From: Planctomycetota bacterium
Lineage (GTDB): Bacteria > Planctomycetota > UBA8108
Assembly (NCBI GenBank): GCA_002695115.1
Contig: NZOA01000058.1
Span: forward strand, 29,568-52,998
Length of the DNA: 23,431 nucleotides
Direction of reading: 5' to 3'
Shown: one piece after another, positions 3,940 to 23,431 of the stretch
Layout of the letters: every line of letters begins with the position of its first letter
Numbering within the stretch: position 1 is the first letter of the stretch
Notes under the pieces: generated by a model
Databases searched by the model: none
What the model was told of the DNA's origin: nothing
What the model saw: the letters and a program-made list of their open reading frames with translations, nothing else
Made by a program: the position numbers and the translations under genes

Positions 3940-6900
3940 ATGGCCAAGTTAACCGTTGAATCCGGCTCTCAGAGAGGGAAGCAGTTCAAGCTTCCCGAGT
4001 CAGGAAGCTTCTCGATCGGCAGGGACGAGAGCTGCTCCTTTTGCATCGAGGACCAGATGGCCTCACGGGAGCATTGTGTGGTGCGCTGCGAGCCGGGCAA
4101 GTGGGTTATCGAAGATTCCGGGAGCACCAACGGCATCCGGGTAAACGATATCCCGGTGCATGAGCACACCCTCATTCCAGGGGATACGATCGCGATTGGT
4201 GACACCCTCATGTCGCTCGCCACCACCGATGAGGATCCGCTCATCGGCAGCACCCTGGCCGGTTACAAGATCGAGAAGCGTCTGGGCCGCGGCGCGATGG
4301 GTACTGTCTACCTGGCTTGCCAGCTTTCCCTCGATCGGCAGGTCGCCCTGAAAATCCTGGCTCCCCGGTTTTCCAAGGACGAGGATTTCATCCAGAGCTT
4401 TCTGAAGGAGGCGCGGTCCGCTGGCAGTCTGAACCATCCAAATGTAGTCCAGGTCTACGATGCGGGCAACGAGGGCGACTATCACTATATGTCGATGGAA
4501 TACCTCGAGGGCGGTAGCCTCGAGGAGCTTCTCGAGCGGGAAGGGCGCCTCGATATTATCCGTGCCGTCAATGCGGCCAGGGATGCCGCCCAGGCCCTCC
4601 AGTTCGCCCAGCAGAATCAAATTGTCCACCGTGACATCAAGCCTGCCAATCTCATGCTCACTCTCGATGGGACGGTAAAGGTCGGAGATCTCGGTATCGC
4701 TGCCGACCTCAGCCAGTCCGCGAGTGGGGGAGGCGGGGGCAATGTTCCCGCGGCAGGCTCGCCCCGCTATATGGCTCCTGAGCAGGCCCGGGGCGAGGCG
4801 CTGGATCACCGCGCTGATATTTATGGCCTTGGGGCGACGCTCTACAGGATGATCGCCGGGGTAGCCCCCTTCGATGGGTCGAGCGTCAAGGAGATCATCA
4901 GGGCCAAGCTGGATAATGATCCGACGCCTCTGCGGAAGCTGAACCCGGAGATTCCCGGAGGGCTTTCCGCCGTCGTACAGAAGATGCTCGCGCGCAATCC
5001 CGACAGCCGGTACGAGAACGCGGCCCAGGTCTACTCGGCCCTGGAACCATCCCAGTACAGAAAGAGTATTTCAGCCAAGGGAAAGGCGCGCGCCGCCCGG
5101 GTTGCCGTGGCGAGCCAGGGCGCCCGTCCGGCGGCGGGGCGCGGAGGCACCAGGCATCCTCGCCGCCCGGCCCAGGGGTCGCAATCAAATCTTATTGTCG
5201 GCTCGATAATAGGGGTCGTCGCGCTGATTCTCGTACTCGTTCTCGTCTCAAACTTCAGGAATGATGGAGAGCAGAGCCCCGACAGGGGCAAGTCGAATGA
5301 GCCAGTCACTTCCACCTCAAAGCCTCCGGAGGAGCATAGGGAGGACAATCCGGGTCTTGAGAGGAATCAGTCGAAGCTCGCCCTCAAGCGGCTCGAGAAG
5401 ATCCAGGAGCTCTATTCCGGGGGGAAGCTCGATGCCTCGGCGGCGCTCCTGCAGTTGGAGAACCTTCTCGCGGACAATCCGCGGATCGCGCTCAGCGCTG
5501 AGAAGCTCCTGAAAGAGCTTGGCTCCAAGGCGGAGTTGGCGAAGAAGGAGGCGGCCAGGAATCGCAAGAAGCAGGCCACCGCCGCGCTGGCTTCCATCGA
5601 TGTTCTCATCGAGAAGAACGAATTGCGCAAGGCCGCTGATTCCATAGCGGCTTTTCTCGCGCGGTATTCCGATCTCGGTGCCGGGATGGTCTCCCCGTAC
5701 CAGGCGAAGCTCGGCGGCATCGTTCGCTCGGGAATGGATGCGGCCGGCAAGCTGGTGAGGCAGCTGTCCTCCAGCGGCGACTTTGAGAAAGCTCGCGCGG
5801 AGATCACCGCCCTGAAAGCGCGGATGCCCTCAAGCGAAAGCGCGCGTATCCAGTCCATGGAAGCGGAGATCGGCCTGGTTGAGAGCCGACGGGCCAACAG
5901 CCTGAAGTTCATTGAAGACAATCGGGCCGGCCTCTACACGATGCTGGCCGATTTCGATTTTGCCGGCGCCCGCAAGCATCTTGATGGCATCATCGGCAAG
6001 CTCGGTGGCGCCGACGCGGTTAATAAGGAGGCCAAGGCTCTCCTGGAACTTCTTGGCAACCAATTGTCCGCGAGCCGGAAGAGCTGGGAGGAGCTCCAAT
6101 CATTTTTTTCGAAGTCGGAAAAGTCCAAGTCAGTAGTGAAGGTCAGGTTTCTCCCGGTCGCCAAGGATGACAAGGAGCTGCGGTACAAGGTTCTTGGTCT
6201 CGAAGGGCACGCGGTGAGGGTCCAGGAGTCCGGCTCCAAGGCGCCAGCCCCGGTGGCCTATCGTATCCTGGGACTTGATACAGGCAGTCTTGTCAGGCTG
6301 GTCGGGCAGCCGGGAGCATCGGGCCTCAAGGAGGCGGAGGTGTTCCAGGGACTCGGAACGCTTCTGCTGCTGAGAGATGGCCCCGCCCGGGCGCGTTCCA
6401 TGCTCCTGTCCGAGAAAATTCCCGTAGCCGCCAGGAAGGATAATGAGAGGATCCTTGCCAAGTACGTCGAAACCTGGCGGGAGGTACGCTTGTATTCTCT
6501 CCAGAAACTCGAGAGCAAACTTTCAGCTGGAAAGCAGCCGGTGTCCTCCGAGCTGTGGAACTTCATCGCGAACGACACGGGCTTTCTGATCACCTCCTGG
6601 AAAACCAGGCCCGACTACGCTAAGCATCGCCCTACCCTGCATGAATTATTTCTCCGTACCCGGATCGCGTCCCTGGCGGGCGCCTCGGTGGAGGGAGCAT
6701 TCAACGCCAAGACGGTCAAACAGGAACGCGATGGTCAGACCACCCTGTCCTACGATTTTTCATCGATGGATCAGCTGAAGGATTTCTACCCGGTGGGCAA
6801 GGGCGCCTCCTCGCTGGAATGGATCGAGAAGAAACGGTTTTTCAAGCTCAAGGGAGAGGCCCGTTTCCTTGCGGCTAACCCCTTCGAATCCAGGATCGCT

Positions 6901-7851
6901 GTCAACGGTGTCGTTCCTTCCGGTGGCTACCATGCCCCCGCTCCGAATATCAACGTCGCCCTGTGGACTGAAGAGAATGATCACGTAACCCTGGGTCTCG
7001 ATGGCGGACGTTTTGAGTACAACTCCTGGCGTGAAAGCGGTGGTGATGGCGGGGATCCCCCGGCGGATTACTTCGCTCTCGGAATGGGATACAAACCCGA
7101 AATAAACATCTCCACCGATCTTCTTCCTGGAGGACGCCTCGGACGCCTGGCCGGCCTGTTGACCAACGTGCTCCCCGGCTATTTCAGAGAGACTTCTTTC
7201 GTGCTTCTCTCGGGTGATCACAACGCCACCCTGCATCGGCGCAGGGATGAGAAAATCTGGGAGCAGCCCGTGGGTAACGTAATGCGCTCAGGGGGGGTGC
7301 GTTTCTCCATTTCGATGGAGAACAGCGATCTGAGGTGGAAGATCAACAACAAGACCCTCAACTACAAGACCAGCCGGGCGGCGGCCCGGCTGGGTGAGAA
7401 GATTCCTCACGCCGGATCGCTGACTCTCTTTACCAATAACAGCACCGTCTATTTCTCCTCCCTGGAGATCAGGGGCCAGATCTCGAAAGAATGGGCCGCC
7501 GGTCTCGCCAAGAGCATCGCGGAGCGGGAGCTCAAGAAGCTGGATTCTTCCGTAGAAAAGGGCAAGGGAAGCGCCAATGAAACGCCCAGGTCTGAGTCGG
7601 GGGCAGGGAATGGATCGGGAAAAGGAAGCGCCCCGGAAAAAAAACCGGATCAGGACACCGGCTCTTCAGGATCCCTCGATGGTCTCAAGGGGGTTATGGA
7701 GAGATTCGACAAGAATGGCGATGGCAGCCTGGACGATGACGAGCGCAAGAACCTCCAGGATTTCCTGCGGGGGAGCCTGGAGCCCGGGTCGGATTCTTCT
7801 CCAGATAAAAAGAAGCCGGCCGGCTCAACGGGTGGGGGATCATCTTCCTGA
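3940..7851 (+). CDS. FHA-domain Ser/Thr protein kinase with one membrane span and C-terminal EF-hand
   Basis: A 1303-residue signalling protein. Residues about 1-95 are an FHA domain, which binds phosphothreonine (IGRDE, SREHC, STNG). Residues about 110-370 are a Hanks-type kinase with GRGAMG (116-121), K138, HRDIKPAN with D232, K234 and N237, D250-L-G in place of DFG, and APE (279-281); all catalytic residues are present. A basic, Pro/Arg/Ala-rich linker leads to a membrane helix at about 418-438. The outside part has a Lys/Glu-rich helical stretch (about 465-720), then a beta-rich region (about 930-1190) recalling concanavalin-like glycan-binding folds, then a Gly/Ser/Lys linker. A canonical EF-hand loop lies at 1257-1268 (DKNGDGSLDDDE) with ligands at positions 1, 3, 5, 9 and 12. 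The layout suggests an envelope sensor that phosphorylates cytoplasmic targets; the signal is unknown. A G-G-C-A-G-G patch is the only weak ribosome binding site. The CotH gene follows immediately. Confidence 0.93.
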   Translation: MAKLTVESGSQRGKQFKLPESGSFSIGRDESCSFCIEDQMASREHCVVRCEPGKWVIEDSGSTNGIRVNDIPVHEHTLIPGDTIAIGDTLMSLATTDEDPLIGSTLAGYKIEKRLGRGAMGTVYLACQLSLDRQVALKILAPRFSKDEDFIQSFLKEARSAGSLNHPNVVQVYDAGNEGDYHYMSMEYLEGGSLEELLEREGRLDIIRAVNAARDAAQALQFAQQNQIVHRDIKPANLMLTLDGTVKVGDLGIAADLSQSASGGGGGNVPAAGSPRYMAPEQARGEALDHRADIYGLGATLYRMIAGVAPFDGSSVKEIIRAKLDNDPTPLRKLNPEIPGGLSAVVQKMLARNPDSRYENAAQVYSALEPSQYRKSISAKGKARAARVAVASQGARPAAGRGGTRHPRRPAQGSQSNLIVGSIIGVVALILVLVLVSNFRNDGEQSPDRGKSNEPVTSTSKPPEEHREDNPGLERNQSKLALKRLEKIQELYSGGKLDASAALLQLENLLADNPRIALSAEKLLKELGSKAELAKKEAARNRKKQATAALASIDVLIEKNELRKAADSIAAFLARYSDLGAGMVSPYQAKLGGIVRSGMDAAGKLVRQLSSSGDFEKARAEITALKARMPSSESARIQSMEAEIGLVESRRANSLKFIEDNRAGLYTMLADFDFAGARKHLDGIIGKLGGADAVNKEAKALLELLGNQLSASRKSWEELQSFFSKSEKSKSVVKVRFLPVAKDDKELRYKVLGLEGHAVRVQESGSKAPAPVAYRILGLDTGSLVRLVGQPGASGLKEAEVFQGLGTLLLLRDGPARARSMLLSEKIPVAARKDNERILAKYVETWREVRLYSLQKLESKLSAGKQPVSSELWNFIANDTGFLITSWKTRPDYAKHRPTLHELFLRTRIASLAGASVEGAFNAKTVKQERDGQTTLSYDFSSMDQLKDFYPVGKGASSLEWIEKKRFFKLKGEARFLAANPFESRIAVNGVVPSGGYHAPAPNINVALWTEENDHVTLGLDGGRFEYNSWRESGGDGGDPPADYFALGMGYKPEINISTDLLPGGRLGRLAGLLTNVLPGYFRETSFVLLSGDHNATLHRRRDEKIWEQPVGNVMRSGGVRFSISMENSDLRWKINNKTLNYKTSRAAARLGEKIPHAGSLTLFTNNSTVYFSSLEIRGQISKEWAAGLAKSIAERELKKLDSSVEKGKGSANETPRSESGAGNGSGKGSAPEKKPDQDTGSSGSLDGLKGVMERFDKNGDGSLDDDERKNLQDFLRGSLEPGSDSSPDKKKPAGSTGGGSSS

Positions 7852-7869
7852 TTTTTGAGATTCCGGGAT

Positions 7870-7873
7870 GAGG
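7870..7873 (+). promoter_or_regulatory. Ribosome binding site deciding the start of the CotH/LTD gene
   Basis: GAGG lies eight bases before the ATG at 7882. The more upstream in-frame TTG at 7855 sits three bases after the kinase stop and has no such site, so 7882 is preferred. Confidence 0.5.
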
Positions 7874-7881
7874 CCGATCGG

Positions 7882-10800
7882 ATGGTTGTGAATCAAGAGG
7901 GCTGTTGTCCGAACTCCCGCTCTCCGGTCGCCACGCGGCCCGGGCGGAGACCATCCCGCCTCCCGGGCTTCAGCCCGGGGAAGCTCCTGCCGGGGCTGCT
8001 GGCGTTTTTACTGCTCAGTTCGGCCACTGCCTGGAGCCAGCCCCTTTCGGTTCGCTGCGGAATGACCGTTTCGCGGGAGGTCGAGGGGGAGAGCAGGAGC
8101 CTGCCGGACCTGCCCTTCAATGTTTCCAGGGGTTACGGATTTATCGGTGGCTCCTCGGGAGCGCTCGAGGCGGGCACGGTTCGGGGCTGGCGGCCGGGGG
8201 CTCCAGTCTCCTGGCGTTCAGGGGAGACAAAATACGTATTCAAGCTGGAGAGGGGAGACTACCTGGTGACCATCGATCTGGTGGAAACCGAGGTCGCCGC
8301 GGCGGGCTTGAGAGTGTTTGATGTCGAGGCTGAGGGGAAGACCGCAGTCGAGGGGGTCGATATTTTTGACGAGGCGGGTGATTTCAGCCTGCTCCAGAGG
8401 GTCTTTCGCGTCGGTGTCTATGATGGATGGCTCGATCTGCGCTTCGCGGCCGTTACCGGGGACCGCGGTCCCCGGGTGTCCAGGATCTCCGTAGAGCGGG
8501 CACCTCCCGGTAAGCCGGCAGAGCTTTCGCTGGTAAAGCCGCTCCTCACAGGCAGGGCGGGGCTGTTTCACAACACCCTCTCCTGGCAGCCCTCAGGGGG
8601 AAAAAGCTGGGGGACGGCTCCGCTCGCGGGTTTCAACGTCTACCGCGGTGAGGATCCGGCTGGTCCCTTCGCGCCCCTGAATGACAGGCTCCTGAGGGTT
8701 CCCTTCGTCACGGACCGGGACCTGGTCCCGGGGGAGACCTATTACTACAGGGTGGAGAGCCAGGATATCGATGGAACCAGGAGTCCTCCATCCGCGGCGG
8801 TTGTCGTCGAGGCCTCCGTCCATGGTGAAGGACATCCGAAACTCTACGATTTCCGGATCAGCCAGGCTGATCTTCAGCACATGGCGACCCCTGCCGGTTC
8901 GCGCGAAATGGTTCCCGCCGAGCTTCTCTACATGAAAGACCGTTTTCCCGTGGAGCTCGGTTTTGATTCGAGGCCCGGAAAGTGGCTGGCACATAAGAGC
9001 CTGGTGGTGGATATGACCAGGGACAGCTTCAGGGTTTTTCGCAAGAGAGACGTGCTGCTGCTCAGTACGCAGGAGCTGGATTTTACCCGGATGCGCCACT
9101 GCCTCACTGCCCTGGCGGCTGAATCCATCGGGCTCCCGGCCGCAATGGCTGAACCGGTCGTGGTGCTCATCAACGGTCGGTTTTTCGGCTTGCGTTACGA
9201 TATCGAGAGAATCGACAGCAAGTTTCGAAAACGTGTCCTGCTTGACAGGACCGGCCCCCTGAGCCGGCTCAACGGCGATGACCACTGGCGTTCGGATTGG
9301 AGCCTGAGAGGGCGCAGGATCGGCAAGAGTGGCGACCTGTTGTCGGTGAACGAACTTGTCAGGCAGGTCAACCGCCTCCATCCCGGGGAGGTCGAGAGCT
9401 TTTTCAGGAGCCGCTTCTACCTGCAGAAATTTATCGATCGCCTGGCGTTCTCGGCGGTTCGTGGAGAGCTGGATCCGGCGCCCACAGATTTTCTTCTGCT
9501 GCGAGATTCTCGGAATGGAAAGTGGGAGATGTTCAGGGAGGATTATCGCAACAGTGACTGGGGGATCCGTGATCTTGAAAAAGAGATCCGGGAGCTCACG
9601 TCGGGAGAGCTGGAGCGGGCGCTCTTTCCTCTCTGCCAGAGAGCTGGAGCGCCCAGGCGGGAAGCCTGGCTGGTTCTCTTCACCCGGTTTTTCAAGGTGC
9701 CGGCTTTTCGTGAGCTCTATCTCCAGAGGGTGGAGGCCCTCTTGCGTGAGGAGCTGTCTCCCGGGCGATTCGATGTCCTGGTCGACAGGACCGCCGCCAA
9801 GGTGGCCTCTTCCCTGGAAGACTGGAGGTTGATCTGGCCATACGACGAGGGCGTGACCCTGGAGAGCTCCGTCGAGAAGATCAAATCCGCGCATCGCAGG
9901 CGGTCCCTGGCTCTCAAGGGATTCATCGCCGAGGTCAGGGCGCGGCCCACGGAGCCGGTGTGTTTCTCAGCCTGGTCCCTTCATCCCTCCATCGGCGCGG
10001 CCTGGGTGGAATTGACCAATCGTTCCGGAGAGCCTGTGCGCCTGGCGAGCTACCGGTTCTCCGAGGGTTTCTCGGAGAATCCCGGCCTTGTCTCCCTGCG
10101 GGAAGTTCTCGCTCCCGGAGCGAGCTTCCGGATCGAGCTGCCGGGCGGGGCGGCGGCATCGCGACGCGCGGCTGGAGGACTCCTGGCGCTCTGGCGGCGC
10201 GGGTTGGCCGGAAGCCTGGTCGTTTCGGACTTTTTTTTTCATGGTCACCAGGTTCGCGGCATTGTTCAGAAAAAGGATCCGGGCGCCGGTGGGGGATGGA
10301 TCTTTGTCTCCGGTGAGGAGAGGAAGGGAGAGTGCCCGAGCCCTTTTTTCTCTCATGGGGTCACTCGCCAGGACAACAAGGATCTCCTGCTCTCCTTCAG
10401 GTTCCAGGCTCCGCTTGGCACGGGCGGGGGCGAGAGGCCCGAGATCGAGCTGATGTACCGTCCCGTGACAGAGAAGGAATACCGCAGCGTCCCGATGAGC
10501 TGGGATGATGAGAGACATCGTTACCTGCTTACCCTCGAGAAGGAAGCTGATCGTCCCCGGACCGAGTACTACTATCGGGCCAGGGGGGCGAACGGGCTGG
10601 AGCGGGCCTATCCCCTTGGTGCCCCGGCCCTTTCGCTGGCACTGCCTGTCCTGCCGCCGCTGTTTATCAACGAGGTCTGTCCCCGTCCCGGAGGGGGCGC
10701 GGATGGCCCGGGTGAGTTCATCGAGATCTTCAACGGGTCTGATGGTGAGCTGTCTCTCAAGGGCCTCTATCTTTCCGACGACAGGCGAAGAAAGGCGAAG

Positions 10801-11145
10801 TGGCGTATCGATGAGGATATTGTCGTCAAGTCGGGCGGCTACGTGGTTTTCTATGGAGATGGTCAGAACCGGGGTCGGCATACGAGCTTCAAGCTGTCCA
10901 ATTCCGGAGAGTTTATCGGTCTCTACACGCCGCCGGAGGAGGGGAGCCTCCTGGTTCATGGCTGCGCCTTCAGGGGTGTTCCGCTGGGAAACTCCTGGGG
11001 AAGAAAGCAGGATGGAAGCCGCTCCTTCAGGGCCTGGAAAGATCCCACGCCGGGCAGGAGGAATCTCCCGAAGATACCCGATGGTCTCCTGGAGAAGCTG
11101 CGCGCGAAGGAAAAGGAGAAAGGCGCGAAGGAGGAGGAGAGGTAG
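7882..11145 (+). CDS. Secreted CotH-kinase-like protein with malectin-like, FN3-like and lamin-tail domains
   Basis: A 1087-residue exported protein. A long basic N-terminus precedes a signal segment (LLPGLLAFLLLSSATAWSQ, about 35-53). Next come a malectin-like carbohydrate-binding region (about 54-205, beginning LSVRCG) and an FN3-like region (about 222-312, with GFNVYRGE and YYYRVESQD). The CotH-like region (about 317-680) keeps the family pattern: the HKSL lysine (K372), LLSTQELDFTRMRHCL, VLINGRFFGLRYDIERID. Two lamin-tail-like folds follow, the first degenerate (about 690-790) and the second clear (about 927-1060: INEVCPRP, EFIEIFNGSDGELSLKGLYLSDD, SFKLSNSGE). CotH proteins are kinase-like folds that phosphorylate proteins in spore coats, and are widespread in planctomycete secretomes. 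Here the usual WDLD-like motif is WEMFREDYRNSDW (548-560), so activity is uncertain. The C-terminus is a Lys/Glu tail. It is probably co-transcribed with the kinase. Confidence 0.85.
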   Translation: MVVNQEGCCPNSRSPVATRPGRRPSRLPGFSPGKLLPGLLAFLLLSSATAWSQPLSVRCGMTVSREVEGESRSLPDLPFNVSRGYGFIGGSSGALEAGTVRGWRPGAPVSWRSGETKYVFKLERGDYLVTIDLVETEVAAAGLRVFDVEAEGKTAVEGVDIFDEAGDFSLLQRVFRVGVYDGWLDLRFAAVTGDRGPRVSRISVERAPPGKPAELSLVKPLLTGRAGLFHNTLSWQPSGGKSWGTAPLAGFNVYRGEDPAGPFAPLNDRLLRVPFVTDRDLVPGETYYYRVESQDIDGTRSPPSAAVVVEASVHGEGHPKLYDFRISQADLQHMATPAGSREMVPAELLYMKDRFPVELGFDSRPGKWLAHKSLVVDMTRDSFRVFRKRDVLLLSTQELDFTRMRHCLTALAAESIGLPAAMAEPVVVLINGRFFGLRYDIERIDSKFRKRVLLDRTGPLSRLNGDDHWRSDWSLRGRRIGKSGDLLSVNELVRQVNRLHPGEVESFFRSRFYLQKFIDRLAFSAVRGELDPAPTDFLLLRDSRNGKWEMFREDYRNSDWGIRDLEKEIRELTSGELERALFPLCQRAGAPRREAWLVLFTRFFKVPAFRELYLQRVEALLREELSPGRFDVLVDRTAAKVASSLEDWRLIWPYDEGVTLESSVEKIKSAHRRRSLALKGFIAEVRARPTEPVCFSAWSLHPSIGAAWVELTNRSGEPVRLASYRFSEGFSENPGLVSLREVLAPGASFRIELPGGAAASRRAAGGLLALWRRGLAGSLVVSDFFFHGHQVRGIVQKKDPGAGGGWIFVSGEERKGECPSPFFSHGVTRQDNKDLLLSFRFQAPLGTGGGERPEIELMYRPVTEKEYRSVPMSWDDERHRYLLTLEKEADRPRTEYYYRARGANGLERAYPLGAPALSLALPVLPPLFINEVCPRPGGGADGPGEFIEIFNGSDGELSLKGLYLSDDRRRKAKWRIDEDIVVKSGGYVVFYGDGQNRGRHTSFKLSNSGEFIGLYTPPEEGSLLVHGCAFRGVPLGNSWGRKQDGSRSFRAWKDPTPGRRNLPKIPDGLLEKLRAKEKEKGAKEEER

Positions 11146-15167: not shown

Positions 15168-18100
15168 GTGATCTATATTTCCAGCGCTTTGCGTAGCGTG
15201 AGTTCATTTCTACGCGCGCGATTGCGCAAAAACACAATACTGACGAGGGGGTGTCCGGCGATTGAACGCGTTCGGCCGCTTCGCTCAGTCCACGCCATAT
15301 TTTTCCTGGTGGCCAGCTGCCTGGTATTTTCGGTGGCGTCCGCGGCGGAGCTCGTGATCACCTCGGCGACAGTGCATGTCGGCAATGGAGAGGTATTGGA
15401 GGCCGCCACCGTGCTGGTCTCCGACGGGCGCATCGCGGAGGTCGGCAAGGATGGAGAGGTGGAGATCCCGGCTGGCGCGGAGCGGATCGATGCGAGTGGA
15501 CTTCACCTGATGCCGGGGATGGTTGACCTGCGCAGCCTCGAGCTCGTGCCTGAATCTAGAGGCGCTTTCGGGGTGGATGCCCGGATTGCCGTGGCGGATG
15601 GTCTCGATTCCTTCGAGGACTGGGGCCGCGCCCGTGAGGAGGGCGTTACGACGGTCGCTGTCAGCGGGGCGGGCGGTAGCGCCCAGAGCAGCCTCGGAGC
15701 TGTCCTGAAGCTCCGGAGGCGCAACGGGTCCTCTGTCGCGCTCAACGAGTTGCTGCTCGGGAGAGAATCCCACATCGTGCTCTCCCTGGGAATTGCCGGG
15801 TCGACCTCGACCAGCGCTCAGCGTCTCGAACAATATTACGCACTCAGGAGGCAGCTGGTGGCCGCTCGCAATTACAGCGAGTCCTGGGAGAACTACTGGA
15901 AGGAAGTGGAGAAGTACAATAAGGCCGCCGGTAAATTCAACGACGGACTGAAGAAGAAAAAAACCGCTGGAGGATCTGGGCAGAAGAAGGAAGAGAAGAA
16001 GGAAGAGAAGAAGGAAGGGAAAGAAGAAAAGAAGGCTCCCGTTCCACCCCCGGCGGAGGAGAAAAAAGAGCCAAAAAAAACCCCCCCCGCGTCAAAATCC
16101 ACCGCTGCCAAGGCCCCTCCCAAGGCTCCAAAGAGGCCCAAGCTCGACATTGTCCTCGAGGCGCTCAGCAGGGTATTGAAGGGTAAGCTTACCGTCTTCA
16201 TCGAGGCCCATCGTGCCGACGATGTTCGTTACGCTCTGCGTCTGCACAAAGAGTTCAAGCTGGACTTCACCCTTCTGGGCGCCGGGCGCGCCGGGAGCGT
16301 GGCTGGGGAGCTGGCGGCTTCCGGCCTCACGGCCGCTCTCGGGCCGGTTCTCCAGGGTGCCTGGGACCTGCGTCGCAGGGCGGAGAGCGAGCGCCTTGCG
16401 GGTGTTTTCGAAGACGCTGGAGTACCCCTGGTGATCACCTCCGGGGCGGCCTCCGGAGTGGGTTCGAGGTATCTTCGTCTGCAGGCTTGCGCCGCGGTGC
16501 GAGGCGGTCTCGATTCCAGCAAGGCGCTGCAGGCGATTACCCTGCGGCCCGCGAAGCGGCTGGGACTGGAAAAGAAAATTGGCTCCATCGAGAAGGGAAA
16601 AGACGCGGACCTGGTTCTGCTCGATGGCCCTCCGATGGATGTCCGAAGCCGGGTCATCTCGGTCGTCGTCGAGGGAAGAGTCGGCGAAGAGAGCCGGAGC
16701 CCGGCTGAAAAAGCCGACAGGGGGCCTGCGGCGGGATTGAGCTTCGATGCGATAAAGAAACACGGCAACGGGTGGATTCCTGGGGGCCCAACGATCCTGA
16801 AGAACGCGGTTGTCATGCGAGCTGCGCCCGGGGGTCTGGAGGTGATGGAGAAAGCGACGGTGGTGCTCCACAACGGCAAGATCGAGAAGGTGACGACCGA
16901 TCCCGTCAAGGAGGAGCCGCGGCACGCGGTCTTCGATCTCGCCGGCCGCTGCCTGCTGCCCGGTTTTATCGACGCGCACTCGCATATTACCCTCAAGGGT
17001 GATGTCGATGACCTGTCCGTCGCGGTGAATGAAGGGCTGCGTGTTCTTGACAGCTTTGACCCCTGGGACGGTGAGCTGGCGACCCTCCTATCCCGGGGAG
17101 TGACGACCGTGGCCCTGAGTCCGGGACGCAACAACGTGGTCGGCGGAGAGATCAGCCTTGTCAAGCTTCTGCCCGGAGGGGTCCCCCTGCGGGTTCTGAA
17201 ACGGAAGGCCGCGGCGAAGACATCCCTGGTTCCCAACCTGGCCCTGCCGCGCTACCCAACCGCGCACAGTGGCGCGGGCGAGGCCTTCGCGAGCTGGTTG
17301 AAAGTTCGCTTCGGCGGGAAAGCCGCGGGGTCGCGGGCACCTGTGGTCGCCTACTTCGAGACCATCACCCAGGCCGAGCGTTCCTTCGCGTTGGCGAGCG
17401 CCCACGGCGTGCCGGTCACGTTTCTCGAGGGTGTAGGAACCGATGGACGAACCTTCGGCCGGCTGCCCAGGGGATCGAGGGCAATCCTGGGTCCGTACTC
17501 GATAGAGGAACCCGAGAGGGTCTTGCGGGCCCCGGCGATTCTCGAAGAGACGGGAATTCCCTTCTCCTGGGCGACCAGCGGAACCTTGATCGATCCGCTG
17601 AGCTCTGCGGTCCTGGCCATCCTGTACGGGTTGAGCGAGGCGGAGGCGCTTCGTTCACTCACCACGCATCCGGCCGCGATGTACGGTGTGGAAGGGCGGA
17701 TCGGACGCCTCGAAAAGGGCGCCGATGCGGACCTGGTTGTCTGGGATGGAAATCCGCTGACTCTCACCGCGTCGGTCAGCATGGTTCTCATCGATGGAGA
17801 GGTCGTCTACGAAAACGGGCGGGCAGTCGCGGGAAAGGTGAAGCTGTCAGGAAATGATGAGGGCGCCGAGGCGCCACCGACGCCGGTGGTCGCGGCTGCC
17901 GTTGAGGATCCCGTGGCTGTAGCTGATGCGGCGGAGTCAACCATCCTGGTGAGAGCCAGGAAGGTCTACACGGTCTCGGGCGCGGCTCTCGAGCCCGGGC
18001 AGGTGCTGATTCGCGCCGGGAAGATTGTCCAGCTTGGCAAAAGGATAGATATCGACAAGGCGACTCCCGGCCTCCTGGTCATCGATGTTCCGGGCAGCAT

Positions 18101-19184
18101 CTGTCCAGGATTCATCGACGCGGGCTCCGGGATGGGGGTGAGCGGGCGGCGAGCTGACGAATTTCGGGAGATGACCCCAGACCTGCCGGCCCTCTTCGGC
18201 ATCGATCTTCACAGCATCGACCGCCGGAGGGCGCTCCAGGGTGGCGTGACCACCGCGGCGATCACTCCCGGAGACCGTAACGTAATCGGCGGTCTCGGCG
18301 GGGTGATCAAGACATACGGAGATGAGCTCTCCAGTGCGGTCCTGGAGGAGGCTTCTTTTCTCTCCATGTGCCTGACGGAGATGGCGAGCTCCGGTAACCG
18401 GCAACTTCGATCAGGCCGGCCAAGCACCTATCTGTACCGCATACCCACCACGAGGATGGGTACGGTTTTCCTGGCCAGGAGGGCGCTGCTGGAGGCGGAT
18501 CCCGCGGGCTGGGACAGGAGCCAGGCGGTCGGTGACCTGAAGGATATGTTGACGACGGCCGAGCGAGGTGTACTCAGTGAAGTTCGTGCCGGCAAGCGTG
18601 TGCTCAGGGTCCGTGCCCAGACCCGCTACGAGATCCTGACGGCTCTTCGAATCGCCGGAGAGTTTGGATTGAAGATCCAGCTGGAAGGAGCCAGGGAGGC
18701 GCTTCACCTGGTGGATCTCCTCAAAGAGAAAAAGACGGCTGTCCTTCTCAGCGCCGCTGAGAGGTGGTCAGGCAGTGAGCTGGAGGCGAACCTCAACCTG
18801 GGTGCCCGGCTCCCTGCCGAATTGCACAAGGCGGGGGTTCCCTTCGCGTTCTATTCGGACTCCGCCTCTTCCGTTCCTCTGCTGAGGGAGCGGGTGACCT
18901 GGTGCGTTCGCCGTGGCCTTGATGAGGCCGCGGCCCTGGAGGCCCTCACGCTGGGCGCGGCGCGTCTCCTGGGCGTCAGCACCAGGGTCGGCAGTCTCCA
19001 GCCCGGCAAGGATGCGGACCTCGTCGCCTTCGCGGGCTCGCCCTTCGATCTGAAGGCGGGCGTACTCTGGGTCATGGTGAACGGCGAGCTTGTCGCTGAT
19101 CCGTTCAAGGGAGCGCCGGCTATTGAGCGTCCCCGTGCAAGAGTGAACAAACGAAGATCATTGGCCCCGCAAGGGGATTTTTGA
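15168..19184 (+). CDS. Exported protein of three fused amidohydrolase-like modules
   Basis: A 1338-residue protein; single-module relatives are about 400-450. An N-terminal signal segment (HAIFFLVASCLVFSVASAA) is followed by module 1 (about 60-510), module 2 (about 545-890) and module 3 (about 930-1320). Each opens with a short beta-sandwich part, then xPGxxD, then GVTT, and closes with GSIEKGKDADL-like sequence. These belong to the imidazolonepropionase-like group of metal-dependent amidohydrolases. Metal ligands differ. Module 1 has LRSLE in place of HxH. Module 2 keeps H604-S-H606 but lacks the later His and Asp. Module 3 has AGSGM in place of HxH but keeps S1230-D1231. Module 1 carries a Lys/Glu/Pro-rich insert (about 240-325). 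The frame opens directly after a stop with GTG 15168, which has no ribosome binding site; GTG 15198 or an even later non-ATG start is possible. Substrate unknown. Confidence 0.85.
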   Translation: MIYISSALRSVSSFLRARLRKNTILTRGCPAIERVRPLRSVHAIFFLVASCLVFSVASAAELVITSATVHVGNGEVLEAATVLVSDGRIAEVGKDGEVEIPAGAERIDASGLHLMPGMVDLRSLELVPESRGAFGVDARIAVADGLDSFEDWGRAREEGVTTVAVSGAGGSAQSSLGAVLKLRRRNGSSVALNELLLGRESHIVLSLGIAGSTSTSAQRLEQYYALRRQLVAARNYSESWENYWKEVEKYNKAAGKFNDGLKKKKTAGGSGQKKEEKKEEKKEGKEEKKAPVPPPAEEKKEPKKTPPASKSTAAKAPPKAPKRPKLDIVLEALSRVLKGKLTVFIEAHRADDVRYALRLHKEFKLDFTLLGAGRAGSVAGELAASGLTAALGPVLQGAWDLRRRAESERLAGVFEDAGVPLVITSGAASGVGSRYLRLQACAAVRGGLDSSKALQAITLRPAKRLGLEKKIGSIEKGKDADLVLLDGPPMDVRSRVISVVVEGRVGEESRSPAEKADRGPAAGLSFDAIKKHGNGWIPGGPTILKNAVVMRAAPGGLEVMEKATVVLHNGKIEKVTTDPVKEEPRHAVFDLAGRCLLPGFIDAHSHITLKGDVDDLSVAVNEGLRVLDSFDPWDGELATLLSRGVTTVALSPGRNNVVGGEISLVKLLPGGVPLRVLKRKAAAKTSLVPNLALPRYPTAHSGAGEAFASWLKVRFGGKAAGSRAPVVAYFETITQAERSFALASAHGVPVTFLEGVGTDGRTFGRLPRGSRAILGPYSIEEPERVLRAPAILEETGIPFSWATSGTLIDPLSSAVLAILYGLSEAEALRSLTTHPAAMYGVEGRIGRLEKGADADLVVWDGNPLTLTASVSMVLIDGEVVYENGRAVAGKVKLSGNDEGAEAPPTPVVAAAVEDPVAVADAAESTILVRARKVYTVSGAALEPGQVLIRAGKIVQLGKRIDIDKATPGLLVIDVPGSICPGFIDAGSGMGVSGRRADEFREMTPDLPALFGIDLHSIDRRRALQGGVTTAAITPGDRNVIGGLGGVIKTYGDELSSAVLEEASFLSMCLTEMASSGNRQLRSGRPSTYLYRIPTTRMGTVFLARRALLEADPAGWDRSQAVGDLKDMLTTAERGVLSEVRAGKRVLRVRAQTRYEILTALRIAGEFGLKIQLEGAREALHLVDLLKEKKTAVLLSAAERWSGSELEANLNLGARLPAELHKAGVPFAFYSDSASSVPLLRERVTWCVRRGLDEAAALEALTLGAARLLGVSTRVGSLQPGKDADLVAFAGSPFDLKAGVLWVMVNGELVADPFKGAPAIERPRARVNKRRSLAPQGDF
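15952..16088 (+). repeat. Low-complexity GAAGAAGGAAGAG repeats and an A8C8 run inside the fused amidohydrolase gene
   Basis: A purine-rich stretch encodes Lys/Glu repeats (KKEEKKEEKKEGKEEKK), followed by a Pro-rich part. It ends in eight A (16073-16080) directly followed by eight C (16081-16088). A slip of one base in either run would shift the frame of the other 1030 or so residues. It lies in the insert of module 1, a place that tolerates length change. Confidence 0.8.
19165..19182 (+). terminator. Possible weak terminator overlapping the end of the three-module gene
   Basis: CCCC (19165-19168) pairs with GGGG (19173-19176) around a GCAA loop of the stable GNRA type, followed by ATTTTT up to the stop codon. 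The stem is only four pairs, so at most partial termination or attenuation before the next gene is expected. Confidence 0.3.
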
Positions 19185-19205
19185 AAGCGAACTACAGGAA
19201 AAGAC

Positions 19206-20537
19206 ATGAATTTCATTACCCCGATCATGATTCTCACCGCCAGTCTCGCCGCGCAACCCGATGAGGTTGTCGCGCTCAAGGTGGGGCGGGCGATCACAGT
19301 GGCCGGCAAGGAGATCGAGAAGGCCGTCATCGTCATGGAAGGCGGCACCATCAAGGCCATCGGCTCCGATGTCGAGATTCCGCGCACGGCGCGCGTGGTG
19401 GATATGCCGCGGGCGGTGGCCATGCCCGGCATCGTTGACGCCCACAGCGTCAACGGGCTTCGACTGTCCAATGAGCGTCTCGCCAATGTTCCCTACGTGA
19501 GCGTTCTTGACGGCATCGATCCATCGTCGCCGGGGCTCAGGAACGCGCTGCGCCACGGGGTTACCAGCATTCACTGTATCGCTGGAAACGTTACGCGCTT
19601 TGGTGGCCAGGGAGCAGTCATCCGTACCAGTGGAAAGACGGTCACCGAGCTCGTGGTGCAGACACCCTCGGCCATGAAGCTCTCCCTCCAGCCCGCCTCC
19701 GGCGAGAACCGGATGGGGAATATGGCCGCCCTGCGCAAGACCTTCTACGATTTCTATACGAGGATGAAGGCAATCCAGGGAACGGGGGGACAGGCTCCTC
19801 TTGTGGAGAGGAAGAAGCTCTCGCTTACCGACCTGGTAAACACGCGTCCGAGCTGGGGCGAGATCGATTGGAAGAAGGTCCCGCACGACAAGGTGTCCGA
19901 GCGCGACAGGCCGATGCGGGCCCTTGTGAAGGGAGAGCTCAGGGCCTTCATCAACTGTCCGACAGCCTCCGATGTCTTCAAGGCTTTCGAGCTCATCGAC
20001 AACAACCACATTGACGCGACCCTTGTGCTCGGGCCGGATGCCTGGAAGCTCGGAGATATCCTGGCTGTGCGCAAGAACCTGGGACCGGTGGTCCTCAACC
20101 CGCTGCTGGAGGTCTGGGATCGAGATGATGAGACCGGTGCGGAGAAGCGTCATATAACCCCGGTGCTGCTTCACAAGGCGGGAATCTCCTTCGCGCTGCA
20201 GGTGTTTACCGACACGAGCTTCAATACGGGCCCCTACTTCGGTCGCAGTGGTCCCTACCATCACTGGTACCAGGCGGCGCTGCTGGTGCAATACGGCATG
20301 CCCAGGGACAAGGCGCTCGAGACGATCACGATCATTCCTGCGAAGCTCCTCCGTCTCGACCATCGACTCGGCTCGTTGGAGGTTGGCAAGGATGCCAATA
20401 TAGCCATCTTCTCGGGAGATCCGCTCGATGCCCGCAGCTGGGTTGAGAGGGTCTTTATCGAGGGCAGGGAGGTTTACGATCGAGGTAAGGATCGTGACAT
20501 CGAGCGGCTCTTGAAGGACCCCGAGAGGCCATTCTGA
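19206..20537 (+). CDS. Exported amidohydrolase-like protein, single module
   Basis: A 443-residue one-module relative of the preceding gene. It has a short signal peptide (MNFITPIMILTASLAA) and AGGAAAAG six to ten bases before ATG 19206, and it starts 21 bases after the upstream stop. Family marks are MPGIVDAHS, HGVTS, and GSLEVGKDANI near the end. The HxH pair is half lost: H80 is kept, but the second position is V82. The strand that normally carries the next His reads FINCPTA. An FTDTS segment could still supply the Asp of strand 8. With so many changes, hydrolysis in the normal way is unlikely. It is translated as part of the same operon and likely shares the partners of its neighbours. 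Confidence 0.85.
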   Translation: MNFITPIMILTASLAAQPDEVVALKVGRAITVAGKEIEKAVIVMEGGTIKAIGSDVEIPRTARVVDMPRAVAMPGIVDAHSVNGLRLSNERLANVPYVSVLDGIDPSSPGLRNALRHGVTSIHCIAGNVTRFGGQGAVIRTSGKTVTELVVQTPSAMKLSLQPASGENRMGNMAALRKTFYDFYTRMKAIQGTGGQAPLVERKKLSLTDLVNTRPSWGEIDWKKVPHDKVSERDRPMRALVKGELRAFINCPTASDVFKAFELIDNNHIDATLVLGPDAWKLGDILAVRKNLGPVVLNPLLEVWDRDDETGAEKRHITPVLLHKAGISFALQVFTDTSFNTGPYFGRSGPYHHWYQAALLVQYGMPRDKALETITIIPAKLLRLDHRLGSLEVGKDANIAIFSGDPLDARSWVERVFIEGREVYDRGKDRDIERLLKDPERPF

Positions 20538-20575
20538 GACGGCGCCGAGCAAACAGGATCGGCAAACGAAGAGAC

Positions 20576-23107
20576 ATGAGAAAACCATCCAATCAACCGA
20601 AACCGAGAACAGCCAGGGGGCTTGTGGGTGCGGTATGGCTGCCGGCAGTCTTGCTGGTCGCGTTCTTGTCGCCTGCCGTGCTTCGCGGCGGCGAGGAGGC
20701 CTCGGGCCGTAGCTTCGCCCTGCGCGGCGCGACCATCTATACGATCTCGGGGGAGGTCCTGGAGAGTTCAATCCTCCTGGTCGAGTCTGGAAAGATCAAG
20801 GCCCTTGGGAAAGACGTCAAGATCCCCGCCGGCATGAAGGTCTATGACCTTGGTGGCTACGTCGTGCTTCCCGGGCTTCTCGATGCCGAGACGACGTTGG
20901 CAAGCGACAATAGGGATACGCTCGGGAGCTTGTCTCCCCAGGTCCGGGCCCTGGATGGCTGGGATTTTTATCGTAAGAACAGGGAGCTTCTCGAGGGTGG
21001 GGTCACATCGGTCTACCTCTCTCCCGGAATTCCCGCCTCGACGACGAGGACACGGCTTATCTCAGGGCAGGGGGCCGTGGTCAAGACGGCAGGCTCTGCG
21101 AAGGACCCAAGGCAGCGGGTCGTTTCAGCCTCCAGCGGCCTGCAGGTGACCCTCGGGGAGTTGTCTCGGCTTCAACCTTCGATCTACATCCCCCCGGTAG
21201 GGGCCTCACCGGACAATCCCTTCGAGGTTATATTTCCGCCGCTGCCCCAGTCTCGCGCCGGAGAGTTCCTGGCGCTGAGGCAGGTGCTTGCGAGAACCCG
21301 CGCCTGGGGAGCTTCCCTCGCCAGGCATCTCAAGGATGGTTCCGCGGTCCCCGCCTACGATGGCCTCTCTTCAGGTCTCTACCCGGTCGTAGAGGGCCGT
21401 GACCATCTTCGGGTTCGCGTCAACAAGGCGCGGGACATCTACCATATTCTCGAGCTGGCCCGCGAGGCGGATATCAAGATCGTCATCGAAGGCGGCGCCG
21501 AGGCGGAACGCCTGACCGCCTGGCTTGCCAGGATGAAGGTTCCGGTTATCTTCCCGGGAGCGTTCCAGGCTGGAAAGCTGCCCGGTGGAGACCTGCAGAC
21601 CCCGTCCCTGGAGGGACGGCTTCGGGAGGAATCGATCCTGCGGATGCATCAGGCAGGGGTCAGGGTGATTCTCAACAGTCCGACGGATGTCGAGGTGAAG
21701 AATCTGCTCCTGCAGGCTGCCGCGGCGGTACGCATGGGAATGGAGCCCATGGAGGCTCTGCGCGCCGTCACGCTGAATCCCGCCGGGATTCTCGGGGTGG
21801 ATGACCGCATCGGCAGCATCTCTGTGGGCAAGGATGCGGACCTGATCGTTCTTGGCGGGGACCCGCTGGGAGCGGATAACCGGGTGCAGGCCGTATTCAT
21901 CGATGGAGAGCTGGTTTTCAACCGCGCTCCGGCGGTCACCGGGGACTGTACCGTGATCCGTGCCGGACGTCTCATTACGGGAGCTGGCTCGGAGCACTCC
22001 AACGGTATCGTGATCGTCAGGAACGGCAAGATTGAGTACGCCGGAGCGGGATTGATCCTGGAGACCGGAGAAAAAGCCGCGCGTGTAATAGACGCCTCCT
22101 CCCAGACGGTCATACCCGGGCTGATCGATGCCGGCGGCACGGCCGGGACCCGGGCGGAATCCCTGGTTCCGAGCCTTGGAGTGGGCAAGGGCAGCTCGGG
22201 AGCGGGAACGGCGGCCGGCTTCCGGCTCGTTGATTCCATCGACCCGGGGGACCCGGCGCTCATGGAGCTGGTGAAGGCGGGTATCACCACGGCCCTGATA
22301 ACGCCTCCCGGCGCAGGCCAGGTCTCGGCTCTCAAGCTCGCCGCGGCAGATCCCGCCGAGGCGGTCCTCAAACCCTACGCGGCGCAGTATTTCACGAAAT
22401 CATCGAGCAAGACCCTGAAGACCGCCAAGAGCTACCACGACAGCTGGGTTAAGTTCAAACAGAAGAAGGAGGCCGCTGAGAAAAAGGGCGAAGAATTCAA
22501 GGACAAGGCTCCCAAGGTCCAGGATGCCTATGAGCCCTACAGGGCGCTCTTCAAGGGAGACGTTCCCGCCCTCGTCGAGGTGTCTACAGCTTCGGCTGTG
22601 TCCGGCGTCATCGCGCTGTACAAGGACCAGTATGGCATCCGTGTTCTCTGCAGCGGCCTCTCATCGCTGAAAAGGGATGAAGATCTCGGTGCGCTGGCAG
22701 GCATGCTCCTCTCGAAGACGGGGGGAATCGTCCTGCAGACCCCGCTGATCGTCAAGCAGGACAACCAGTCGGTCAACTGGCCCCGGGAATTGAACGCTCT
22801 CGGTATCACGCTCTCGGTTCGTTCCCGCGTCGCCGATGGGGCCAGGCTGCTGCCCCTGCAGGTCTCCTACGCGGTTCGTGAAGGTTGGAATTCGAGGTCA
22901 GCCCTGCGTTCGATGACCTCGGTGCCGGCGAAGCAGTTCGGAATCTCCGACAGGGTCGGCAGCATCGAGAAGGGCAAGGATGCCGACCTGGTCATACTCT
23001 CGGGCGAGCCCTTCTCCGTCACCTCCAGGGTGCTCGGGGTCATGGTCGATGGAAAGCTGGTGCATGGAGTCGAAGAGTTCAAAGGACAGGTTGATGGCAA
23101 TGATTAG
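20576..23107 (+). CDS. Exported protein of two fused amidohydrolase-like modules
   Basis: An 843-residue protein with a basic N-terminus and one hydrophobic signal segment (LPAVLLVAFLSPAVL), starting 38 bases after the previous gene with a GAAGAG site. Module 1 (about 45-445) has LPGLLDAETT where HxH should be (103-107). Module 2 (about 455-830) has IPGLIDAGGT (D518 to T522). Both keep GVTS/GITT segments and end in GSISVGKDADL and GSIEKGKDADL. The strand-8 Asp is also lost in both (NSPTD, RSRVADG). Module 2 has an insert with the pattern SYHDSWVKFKQKKEAAEKK, the same kind as in module 1 of the first operon gene. I expect no metal-dependent hydrolysis from this chain. The stop overlaps the start of the next gene. 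Confidence 0.85.
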   Translation: MRKPSNQPKPRTARGLVGAVWLPAVLLVAFLSPAVLRGGEEASGRSFALRGATIYTISGEVLESSILLVESGKIKALGKDVKIPAGMKVYDLGGYVVLPGLLDAETTLASDNRDTLGSLSPQVRALDGWDFYRKNRELLEGGVTSVYLSPGIPASTTRTRLISGQGAVVKTAGSAKDPRQRVVSASSGLQVTLGELSRLQPSIYIPPVGASPDNPFEVIFPPLPQSRAGEFLALRQVLARTRAWGASLARHLKDGSAVPAYDGLSSGLYPVVEGRDHLRVRVNKARDIYHILELAREADIKIVIEGGAEAERLTAWLARMKVPVIFPGAFQAGKLPGGDLQTPSLEGRLREESILRMHQAGVRVILNSPTDVEVKNLLLQAAAAVRMGMEPMEALRAVTLNPAGILGVDDRIGSISVGKDADLIVLGGDPLGADNRVQAVFIDGELVFNRAPAVTGDCTVIRAGRLITGAGSEHSNGIVIVRNGKIEYAGAGLILETGEKAARVIDASSQTVIPGLIDAGGTAGTRAESLVPSLGVGKGSSGAGTAAGFRLVDSIDPGDPALMELVKAGITTALITPPGAGQVSALKLAAADPAEAVLKPYAAQYFTKSSSKTLKTAKSYHDSWVKFKQKKEAAEKKGEEFKDKAPKVQDAYEPYRALFKGDVPALVEVSTASAVSGVIALYKDQYGIRVLCSGLSSLKRDEDLGALAGMLLSKTGGIVLQTPLIVKQDNQSVNWPRELNALGITLSVRSRVADGARLLPLQVSYAVREGWNSRSALRSMTSVPAKQFGISDRVGSIEKGKDADLVILSGEPFSVTSRVLGVMVDGKLVHGVEEFKGQVDGND

Positions 23108-23431
23108 ATCCCGCAATACCGTCATGCTTCTGCTCGCGTTGAGCGTTTACGCCTTGCCGCTTTGTCGTGGCGAAGAGCCCGTCGCGGAGAAATGGGCTAT
23201 TCGCGGGGGCAAGGTCGTCACCGTGACGAAGGGAACGCTCGAGGGAGCCGTCGTGCTCGTCTCCGGCGGCCGCATCGAGAAGCTCGTCTCCGCTCCCGGG
23301 CCGGGCTGGAAGCCGCCCGCGGGCTACAAGCTCATCGATGCCGGCGAACGTTGGATTGTCCCCGGCTTTGTCGAGCTCCACTCCCATATCGCCGGCGGTG
23401 ATCTCAACGACATGGTCTACCCTGTGAATCC
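23094..23431 (+). CDS. Exported amidohydrolase, N-terminal part (runs off right edge)
   Basis: ATG 23094 (or 23100) overlaps the end of the previous gene by 14 (or 8) bases, with AAAGGACAGG just before it, so the two are probably translationally coupled. The 112 visible residues show a signal peptide (VMLLLALSVYALPLCRG), the opening beta part, and WIVPGFVELHSHIAGGDLND. Here the metal pair H96-S-H98 is intact. With that motif kept, this is the best candidate for the truly catalytic member of the operon, though the later ligands are outside the window. Substrate unknown; the family includes amidases, peptidases and lactonases. Confidence 0.85.
   Translation, partial: MAMIRSRNTVMLLLALSVYALPLCRGEEPVAEKWAIRGGKVVTVTKGTLEGAVVLVSGGRIEKLVSAPGPGWKPPAGYKLIDAGERWIVPGFVELHSHIAGGDLNDMVYPVN

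Follow-up and report, generated by a model that had tools for sequence, protein, structure and literature searches.

The stretch of DNA analyzed here (the window, 23,431 nucleotides, G000:C14:29568-52998) belongs to a Planctomycetota genome of 3.24 Mb in 80 contigs that is 63% complete. Its 3' part carries, on the forward strand, three complete ORFs with three (15168-19184), one (19206-20537) and two (20576-23107) amidohydrolase modules, and a fourth ORF starts at the window end. Pfam amidohydrolase matches are far over the cut-off, with an E-value of 6.6e-44 for the first ORF. The preliminary description had counted seven tandem modules in four ORFs; the tandem on one strand is real, but the contig contains the whole of ORF D, followed by ORF E and ORF F, so the operon comprises nine modules in six ORFs (3+1+2+1+1+1) and is truncated by the window end. 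The closest named relative found is the Planctomycetota isolate ALOHA_A2.5_93, whose ORF D is 96% identical.

The HxH, beta-5 His, beta-6 His and beta-8 Asp columns are taken here to be the metal ligands, in line with what is known of the superfamily in general and with the alignment of module M7 with PDB 3ooq (see below). ORF A (15168-19184, 1338 aa from a mechanically assigned GTG start) fuses M1, M2 and M3 behind one signal-peptide-like segment and has no intact metal site: M1 (15339-16766), which carries a Lys/Pro-rich insert, reads R, L, E, G, A at the ligand columns; M2 (16797-17870) has HSH with the remaining ligands lost (Y, E, none; HHYE- in the alignment of all modules); and M3 (17931-19181) reads G, G, R, G, D. 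ORF B (19206-20537, 443 aa) is M4, with HSV, and ORF C (20576-23107, 843 aa) is a fusion of M5 (20702-21949; E, T, R, G, P) and M6 (21938-23104; G, T, E, G, R), neither of them intact. ORF D is M7 (23094-23431 in the window, start only; L011:8662-9918 in the contig), the sole module with an intact site (H, H, K, H, H, D, with the beta-4 Lys retained); its start codon at 23094 (L011:8662) was our choice, as the open frame extends further upstream. Past the window end on the same contig and strand lie ORF E, or M8 (L011:9936-11357), and ORF F, or M9 (L011:11354-12667), both without an intact site. Given the chosen starts, ORFs C and D and ORFs E and F overlap by a few bases.

These assignments modify several motif readings of the preliminary description. 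The strings that it gave for an xPGxxD position mixed registers; aligned to HxH, modules 1 to 7 read R-L, H-H, G-G, H-V, E-T, G-T and H-H. Modules 2 and 7, both with HSH, had been considered possibly active; module 7 has all ligands, whereas module 2 lacks the others (Y, E, no D), so that only module 7 is intact in the window's genome, where it alone shows HHHHD. As for the fold marks ascribed to every complete module, GVTT is exact in modules 1 to 3 but appears as GVTS in 4 and 5 and as GITT in 6, and GSxxxGKDADL gives way to GRLEKGADADL in module 2 and to GSLEVGKDANI in module 4.

By sequence, the closest solved relative of M7 is PDB 3ooq (E 2.2e-47), a Thermotoga maritima amidohydrolase that presumably corresponds to locus TM0814, and its HxH, His, His and Asp align with those of M7. 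The same structure is the top fold match of the AlphaFold2 models of M4 (pLDDT 87.7, pTM 0.87) and of M5-M6 (pLDDT 79.4, pTM 0.70). The fold is that of the amidohydrolase superfamily, a barrel with a flanking beta-sandwich as in solved members, and in the window's genome the residues of the 3ooq-type catalytic metal site are all present in M7 but not in M1-M6, M8 and M9; eight of the nine modules differ from 3ooq in lacking the site. No named NCBI family (imidazolonepropionase, Xaa-Pro dipeptidase and others) exceeded its curated cut-off among the matches listed (the best 25 for each protein), the best NCBIfam score among them being 151.3 bits against a cut-off of 500.

Single-gene relatives in other phyla differ from the operon in their N termini and in having no neighboring siblings. 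A signal-peptide-like start was found in 432 of 487 unfused genes of the operon and in none of 64 such relatives, as judged by a rule of our own that was also positive in 17/63 fused M6 and 2/4 fused M3 starts and so yields false positives. By class, such starts occur in 45/48 M1, 43/48 M2, 44/52 M3, 48/60 M4, 58/61 M5, 86/97 M7, 52/63 M8 and 56/58 M9. The proteins are apparently exported, presumably to the periplasm or the cell surface. Among 72 named loci (L051-L122), 65 hold a single module, which reads HHHHD in 64 and is gapped at HxH in L119.

The arrangement was followed in relatives by fetching up to 20 kb around matches and labeling modules with nine position profiles, which gave 69 loci that are not independent, since in several cases two loci come from the same genome and others are closely related. 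All nine labels occur in the order M1-M9 in 48 of these. In 43 of the 48, no class covers fewer than 280 profile positions; in the other five one class falls below 280, namely M1 in L053, L125 and L137 and M9 in L197, all at the locus end, and M2 in L165. Contig or fetch ends account for 17 of the 21 partial loci; the remaining four belong to G196 and G169, where M1-M6 stand apart from M7-M9 with all nine still present. Three pieces were mislabeled as M2: a short M8 tail piece in L139 and the front of M3 in L177 and L209. The recurrence of nine classes in one order across the phylum is far beyond chance. One genome, G084, has two separate nine-module operons (L175 and L176).

M5 and M6 share one frame in 63/63 cases, and other neighbors are fused occasionally (M1-M2 9/55, M2-M3 6/57, M3-M4 1/61, M4-M5 1/60, M8-M9 1/58). 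M7 was never found fused (M6-M7 0/61, M7-M8 0/63, M7-M7 0/33). It is also the class that varies in number: across the 48 complete loci it is present in one copy in 34, two in 8, three in 3 and four in 3, and one partial locus has five. All tandem copies of M7 (two to five; L165-L168, L182, L187, L188, L189, L195-L197, L205-L207) are intact. A second near-full copy of any class except M7 was found in none of the 69 loci.

The metal site follows the same division. HxH, K, H, H and D are kept in 96/96 near-full M7 modules, and an intact site occurs in one of 446 modules at the other positions, an M2 (all five ligands, HxH, His, His and Asp: M1 0/49, M2 1/53, M3 0/52, M4 0/61, M5 0/62, M6 0/56, M8 0/58, M9 0/55). 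These counts cover modules spanning at least 280 profile positions and exclude L202, which repeats the operon of L178, the empty L194, and L200, for which the fetch comprised 10 bases. The alignment of degenerate motifs differs between runs, L178 and L202 giving unlike letters for M1 and M6 of the same gene, but two methods agree on the M7 sites and on the site of the intact M2. The latter, at L199:7424-8503 in genome G206 (HSH, K, H, H, D), was labeled by profile score (310 for M2 vs 239 for M3), and it means that site loss is not universal in M2. The M2 of L137 retains four of the five ligands. M2 therefore looks like a second catalytic class whose site was lost later than in the others. G206 may have two catalytic classes; in L190 (G290) M2 is cut, yet its last three ligands are present.

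M4 keeps the first His in 50/61 and the beta-4 Lys in 56/61 modules, with the remaining ligands absent. In most of the classes that lost the site, the metal columns differ from family to family. Off these columns lie conserved polar residues that are specific to a class, such as N72, E73, Y407 and D412 in M4, E80 and R170 in M3, and K125, W235 and R253 in M9; few such residues are conserved in M1, M2, M5 and M8.

Over all modules dN/dS ranges from 0.03 to 0.40. Within the genus, YN00 gives 0.044-0.398 for G000-G003 and 0.071-0.166 for G001-G004, and 0.031-0.116 over 7/9 modules for the more distant pair G000-G004, whose M4 and M5 have NG86 values only; M1 of G003 was compared over 242 codons only. 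M7 yields 0.080 (G000-G003), 0.071 (G001-G004) and 0.031 (G000-G004), and the highest values, 0.40 for M1 and 0.36 for M2, come from the closest pair. In L141 and L164, M1 is split over two frames, which may be true breaks or errors of sequencing; away from contig ends, the 69 loci otherwise showed no broken frames. Decay of tandem duplicates was rejected on the dN/dS values of 0.03-0.40 together with the open frames. The modules are under purifying selection rather than decaying, M1 and M2 being the least constrained.

The suggestion of the preliminary description that the modules serve as pseudoenzymes and are not decaying is borne out by frames that are nearly always open, by most positions being kept as a class of their own, by the kept order and by dN/dS values well below 1. 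It had named broken frames in relatives and relaxed selection on the HxH-lacking modules as evidence that would count against this: away from contig ends, breaks were found in M1 of L141 and L164 only, and relaxation is not general, with selection somewhat looser in M1 and M2 only. The mixed assembly that it had proposed would also fit, with a single active member. The same order does recur across the phylum, as it had proposed to look for, although the true series is M1-M9 and not 3+1+2+1.

In 392 evenly drawn Planctomycetota genomes, profile matches split into a strong and a weak set, and strong matches to M9, M7 and M4 were obtained in 97, 102 and 100 genomes, respectively (at most four candidates scored per genome; cut-offs of E 1e-80 for M9 and 1e-100 for M7 and M4). 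Any of the three occurs in 106 genomes, which span 26 families by family codes, and all three in 88; M7 never occurs without M4 or M9. This profile search found none of the three in 286/392 genomes, among them G005, which belongs to the family of the window's genome and is 80% complete in 870 contigs; genes cut at contig ends, such as the M7 of G382, are missed by these cut-offs.

As to the history of the classes, in a FastTree phylogeny of 138 modules M1, M3, M4, M5, M7, M8 and M9 each occupy one side of a branch, while M6 needs two changes, M2 three and the outside non-intact modules two; 11 groups need 11 changes (minimum 10) vs 103.7 in shuffles. In a quick tree under a mixture model with 75 rows, M4, M6, M7, M8 and M9 form one clade each and M1, M2, M3 and M5, among which many branches are long, need 2, 3, 2 and 3 changes; here 10 groups need 12 changes (minimum 9) vs 55.4 in shuffles, and even when only well-supported branches are counted the label M1 has to change twice. 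One clade for each of the nine classes was not fully reached in either tree. From the trees and the fixed order we infer that the duplications into classes probably took place before the sampled Planctomycetota families split.

Smaller sets of related modules occur elsewhere. In second loci of Planctomycetota, a pair-biased sample picked for matches, often with two matches on a contig, exactly one intact module has at least one non-intact neighbor in 18 of 20 (L144-L147 and L149-L162, with one or two non-intact modules); of the other two, L143 is a cut end and L148 is part of a nine-module operon. Among the 72 named loci, two from Acidobacteria (L100:8314-12753 and L113:6165-10741) have a three-gene cluster of a non-intact, an intact and a non-intact module, L051-L053 come from Planctomycetota and have the nine classes, and L057 combines one intact module with two weak, short pieces on the opposite strand. 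A Clostridia locus (L106:9989-16575) is contrary to the rule, with four intact tandem modules, a fifth with 4/5 ligands and a short sixth piece.

The kept order, the eight single-copy classes, the M5-M6 fusion, the variable number of M7 and the export-type starts point to a fixed hetero-oligomer, and the fusion of neighboring modules is as would be expected of partners. The operon may thus encode an ancient, exported hetero-oligomeric amidohydrolase with one catalytic class and eight structural or substrate-handling ones, a reading to which we give an even chance. A hydrolase gene of the TM0814 type (PDB 3ooq) would have been duplicated to yield nine fixed classes, of which M7 would have kept the metal site and would perform the chemistry, while the site would have disappeared from the other eight, in M2 apparently at a later time and with some lineages spared. 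The eight non-catalytic subunits could hold M7 in place, shape its pocket or present substrate, either in the periplasm or on the cell surface, and the fixed hetero-oligomer could carry one or several alternative catalytic M7 subunits. The products would then touch each other and would probably have a hydrolytic activity like that of their relatives. The same rule on a smaller scale, in 18/20 second loci and the two Acidobacteria loci, counts in favor of this reading. So do the class-specific conserved polar residues, the low dN/dS, the joint occurrence of the M4, M7 and M9 markers and the presence of all nine classes in the split operons of G196 and G169. Against it, co-occurrence and fusion equally fit separate proteins of one pathway, and the pTM of 0.70 for M5-M6 is no proof of a fixed arrangement; the fastest-evolving classes are M1 and M2 (0.40 and 0.36), M1 is frame-broken in two loci and M2 is intact in L199; the trees do not give one clade per class, and 286/392 genomes lack M4, M7 and M9. 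The stronger proposal, an obligate exported complex of nine paralogues with a single always-catalytic class that predates the split of the sampled Planctomycetota families, is put forward tentatively, at somewhat less than an even chance.

Alternatively, the eight non-catalytic proteins could be exported ligand-binders that capture, transfer or sense related substrates or products, separately from M7 and without a complex. This would suit eight distinct classes of which several have conserved polar residues of their own, encoded mostly by separate genes of which most of the unfused ones have their own export-type start, and with the barrel fold retained in the models made. It is nevertheless rather unlikely: conserved order and completeness are as in a fixed stoichiometry, M5 and M6 are always fused, M7 varies in number whereas the others are single, and in the 21 loci compared the genes beside the operon include no transporter or sensor family that is shared across the phylum. 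Less probable still is a multi-step pathway in which some of the eight have acquired new metal-independent or differently metallated sites. The first His (50/61) and beta-4 Lys (56/61) of M4, the strictly conserved charged residues of M3, M4 and M9 and the intact M2 of L199 would agree with such sites, but the metal columns at most lost positions vary between families, conserved polar residues are few in M1, M2, M5 and M8, and Pfam and NCBIfam searches found no other domain in the proteins of the window's operon. Finally, the modules could be decaying tandem duplicates, either pseudogenes or nearly neutral leftovers, as the loss of metal ligands in eight of nine classes, the broken M1 frames of L141 and L164 and the fast evolution of M1 and M2 might suggest; with dN/dS well below 1 in all modules, nine classes in order over many families without further frame breaks away from contig ends, and M4, M7 and M9 together in 88/106 positive genomes, this seems hardly credible.

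A hetero-oligomer with a single catalytic class would have parallels among known systems. The eukaryotic proteasome beta ring, ClpP/ClpR and TRiC are paralogous hetero-oligomers with active sites in a subset of fixed classes; the operon shares their fixed paralogue classes, but these complexes have other folds, none being an amidohydrolase. CRMP/DPYSL proteins are inactive dihydropyrimidinase-like scaffolds of the eukaryotic cytosol, which resemble the modules in having an amidohydrolase fold without catalysis, with weak sequence matches to 5x1c and 2gse, and differ in having no operon with a catalytic sister class. To our knowledge, inactive enzyme relatives are usually described singly. The closest published analogue that we found appears to be the aspartate transcarbamoylase of Pseudomonas aeruginosa, which is reported to require an inactive pseudo-dihydroorotase (pDHO) chain for activity (PMC7053772). 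Like the operon, this system has an inactive chain of the amidohydrolase superfamily beside an active partner, the partner's need for the chain being a feature of pDHO; as described there, that partner is a transferase unrelated to the chain, and a single class is inactive (PMC7053772). The operon instead has a paralogous active partner, eight classes without an intact site, and N termini of exported appearance. Pfam found no aspartate transcarbamoylase gene among the window's own neighbors, and the neighbors of other genomes were compared only with each other. A description of the nine-module operon was not found in the literature searched (open-licence PMC, with subscription papers mostly outside it). 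Pseudoenzyme partners are a known kind, and what is unusual here is the number and the age of the classes.

Eight classes that lack an intact site have retained a fixed order alongside a single intact one, with marker classes in 106/392 Planctomycetota genomes. If the hetero-oligomer is real, it would represent an extreme example among bacteria of a homo-oligomer turned into a fixed hetero-oligomer, with one to five exchangeable M7 subunits on a constant eight-class scaffold, and would mark the far end of a wider habit of exported 3ooq-type enzymes of working with dead siblings. The natural series of one, two, three and nine modules could serve for tracing how a self-assembling enzyme becomes a mixed complex, and it also bears on how often the loss of a catalytic site leaves a protein that is still needed. 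Additionally, domain annotation alone labels nearly all of these modules as amidohydrolase, which inflates enzyme counts in Planctomycetota.

Genes within 3.5 kb of the operon were compared for 21 loci, and no accessory gene, including any of a transporter or sensor family, is conserved beside it over the phylum at this range. An opposite-strand neighbor, a transketolase by eye, recurs in six loci of the order. Within the genus, an FG-GAP protein and three further genes recur beside the operon, and one gene recurs in L141 and L142. The FG-GAP repeat protein of the window's contig (L011:12722-14248) lies on the same strand directly 3' of M9 and is limited to the genus among the compared loci. 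Upstream of the operon, the window encodes a protein with an FHA domain, a Ser/Thr kinase domain and a long C-terminal part ending in a stretch that resembles an EF-hand by eye (3940-7851), followed by one with a CotH kinase domain and lamin-tail and malectin domains (7855-11145). Further downstream, at L011:15675-18309, are possible pilin-like ORFs, recognized by eye from a hydrophobic GFSLLEV start.
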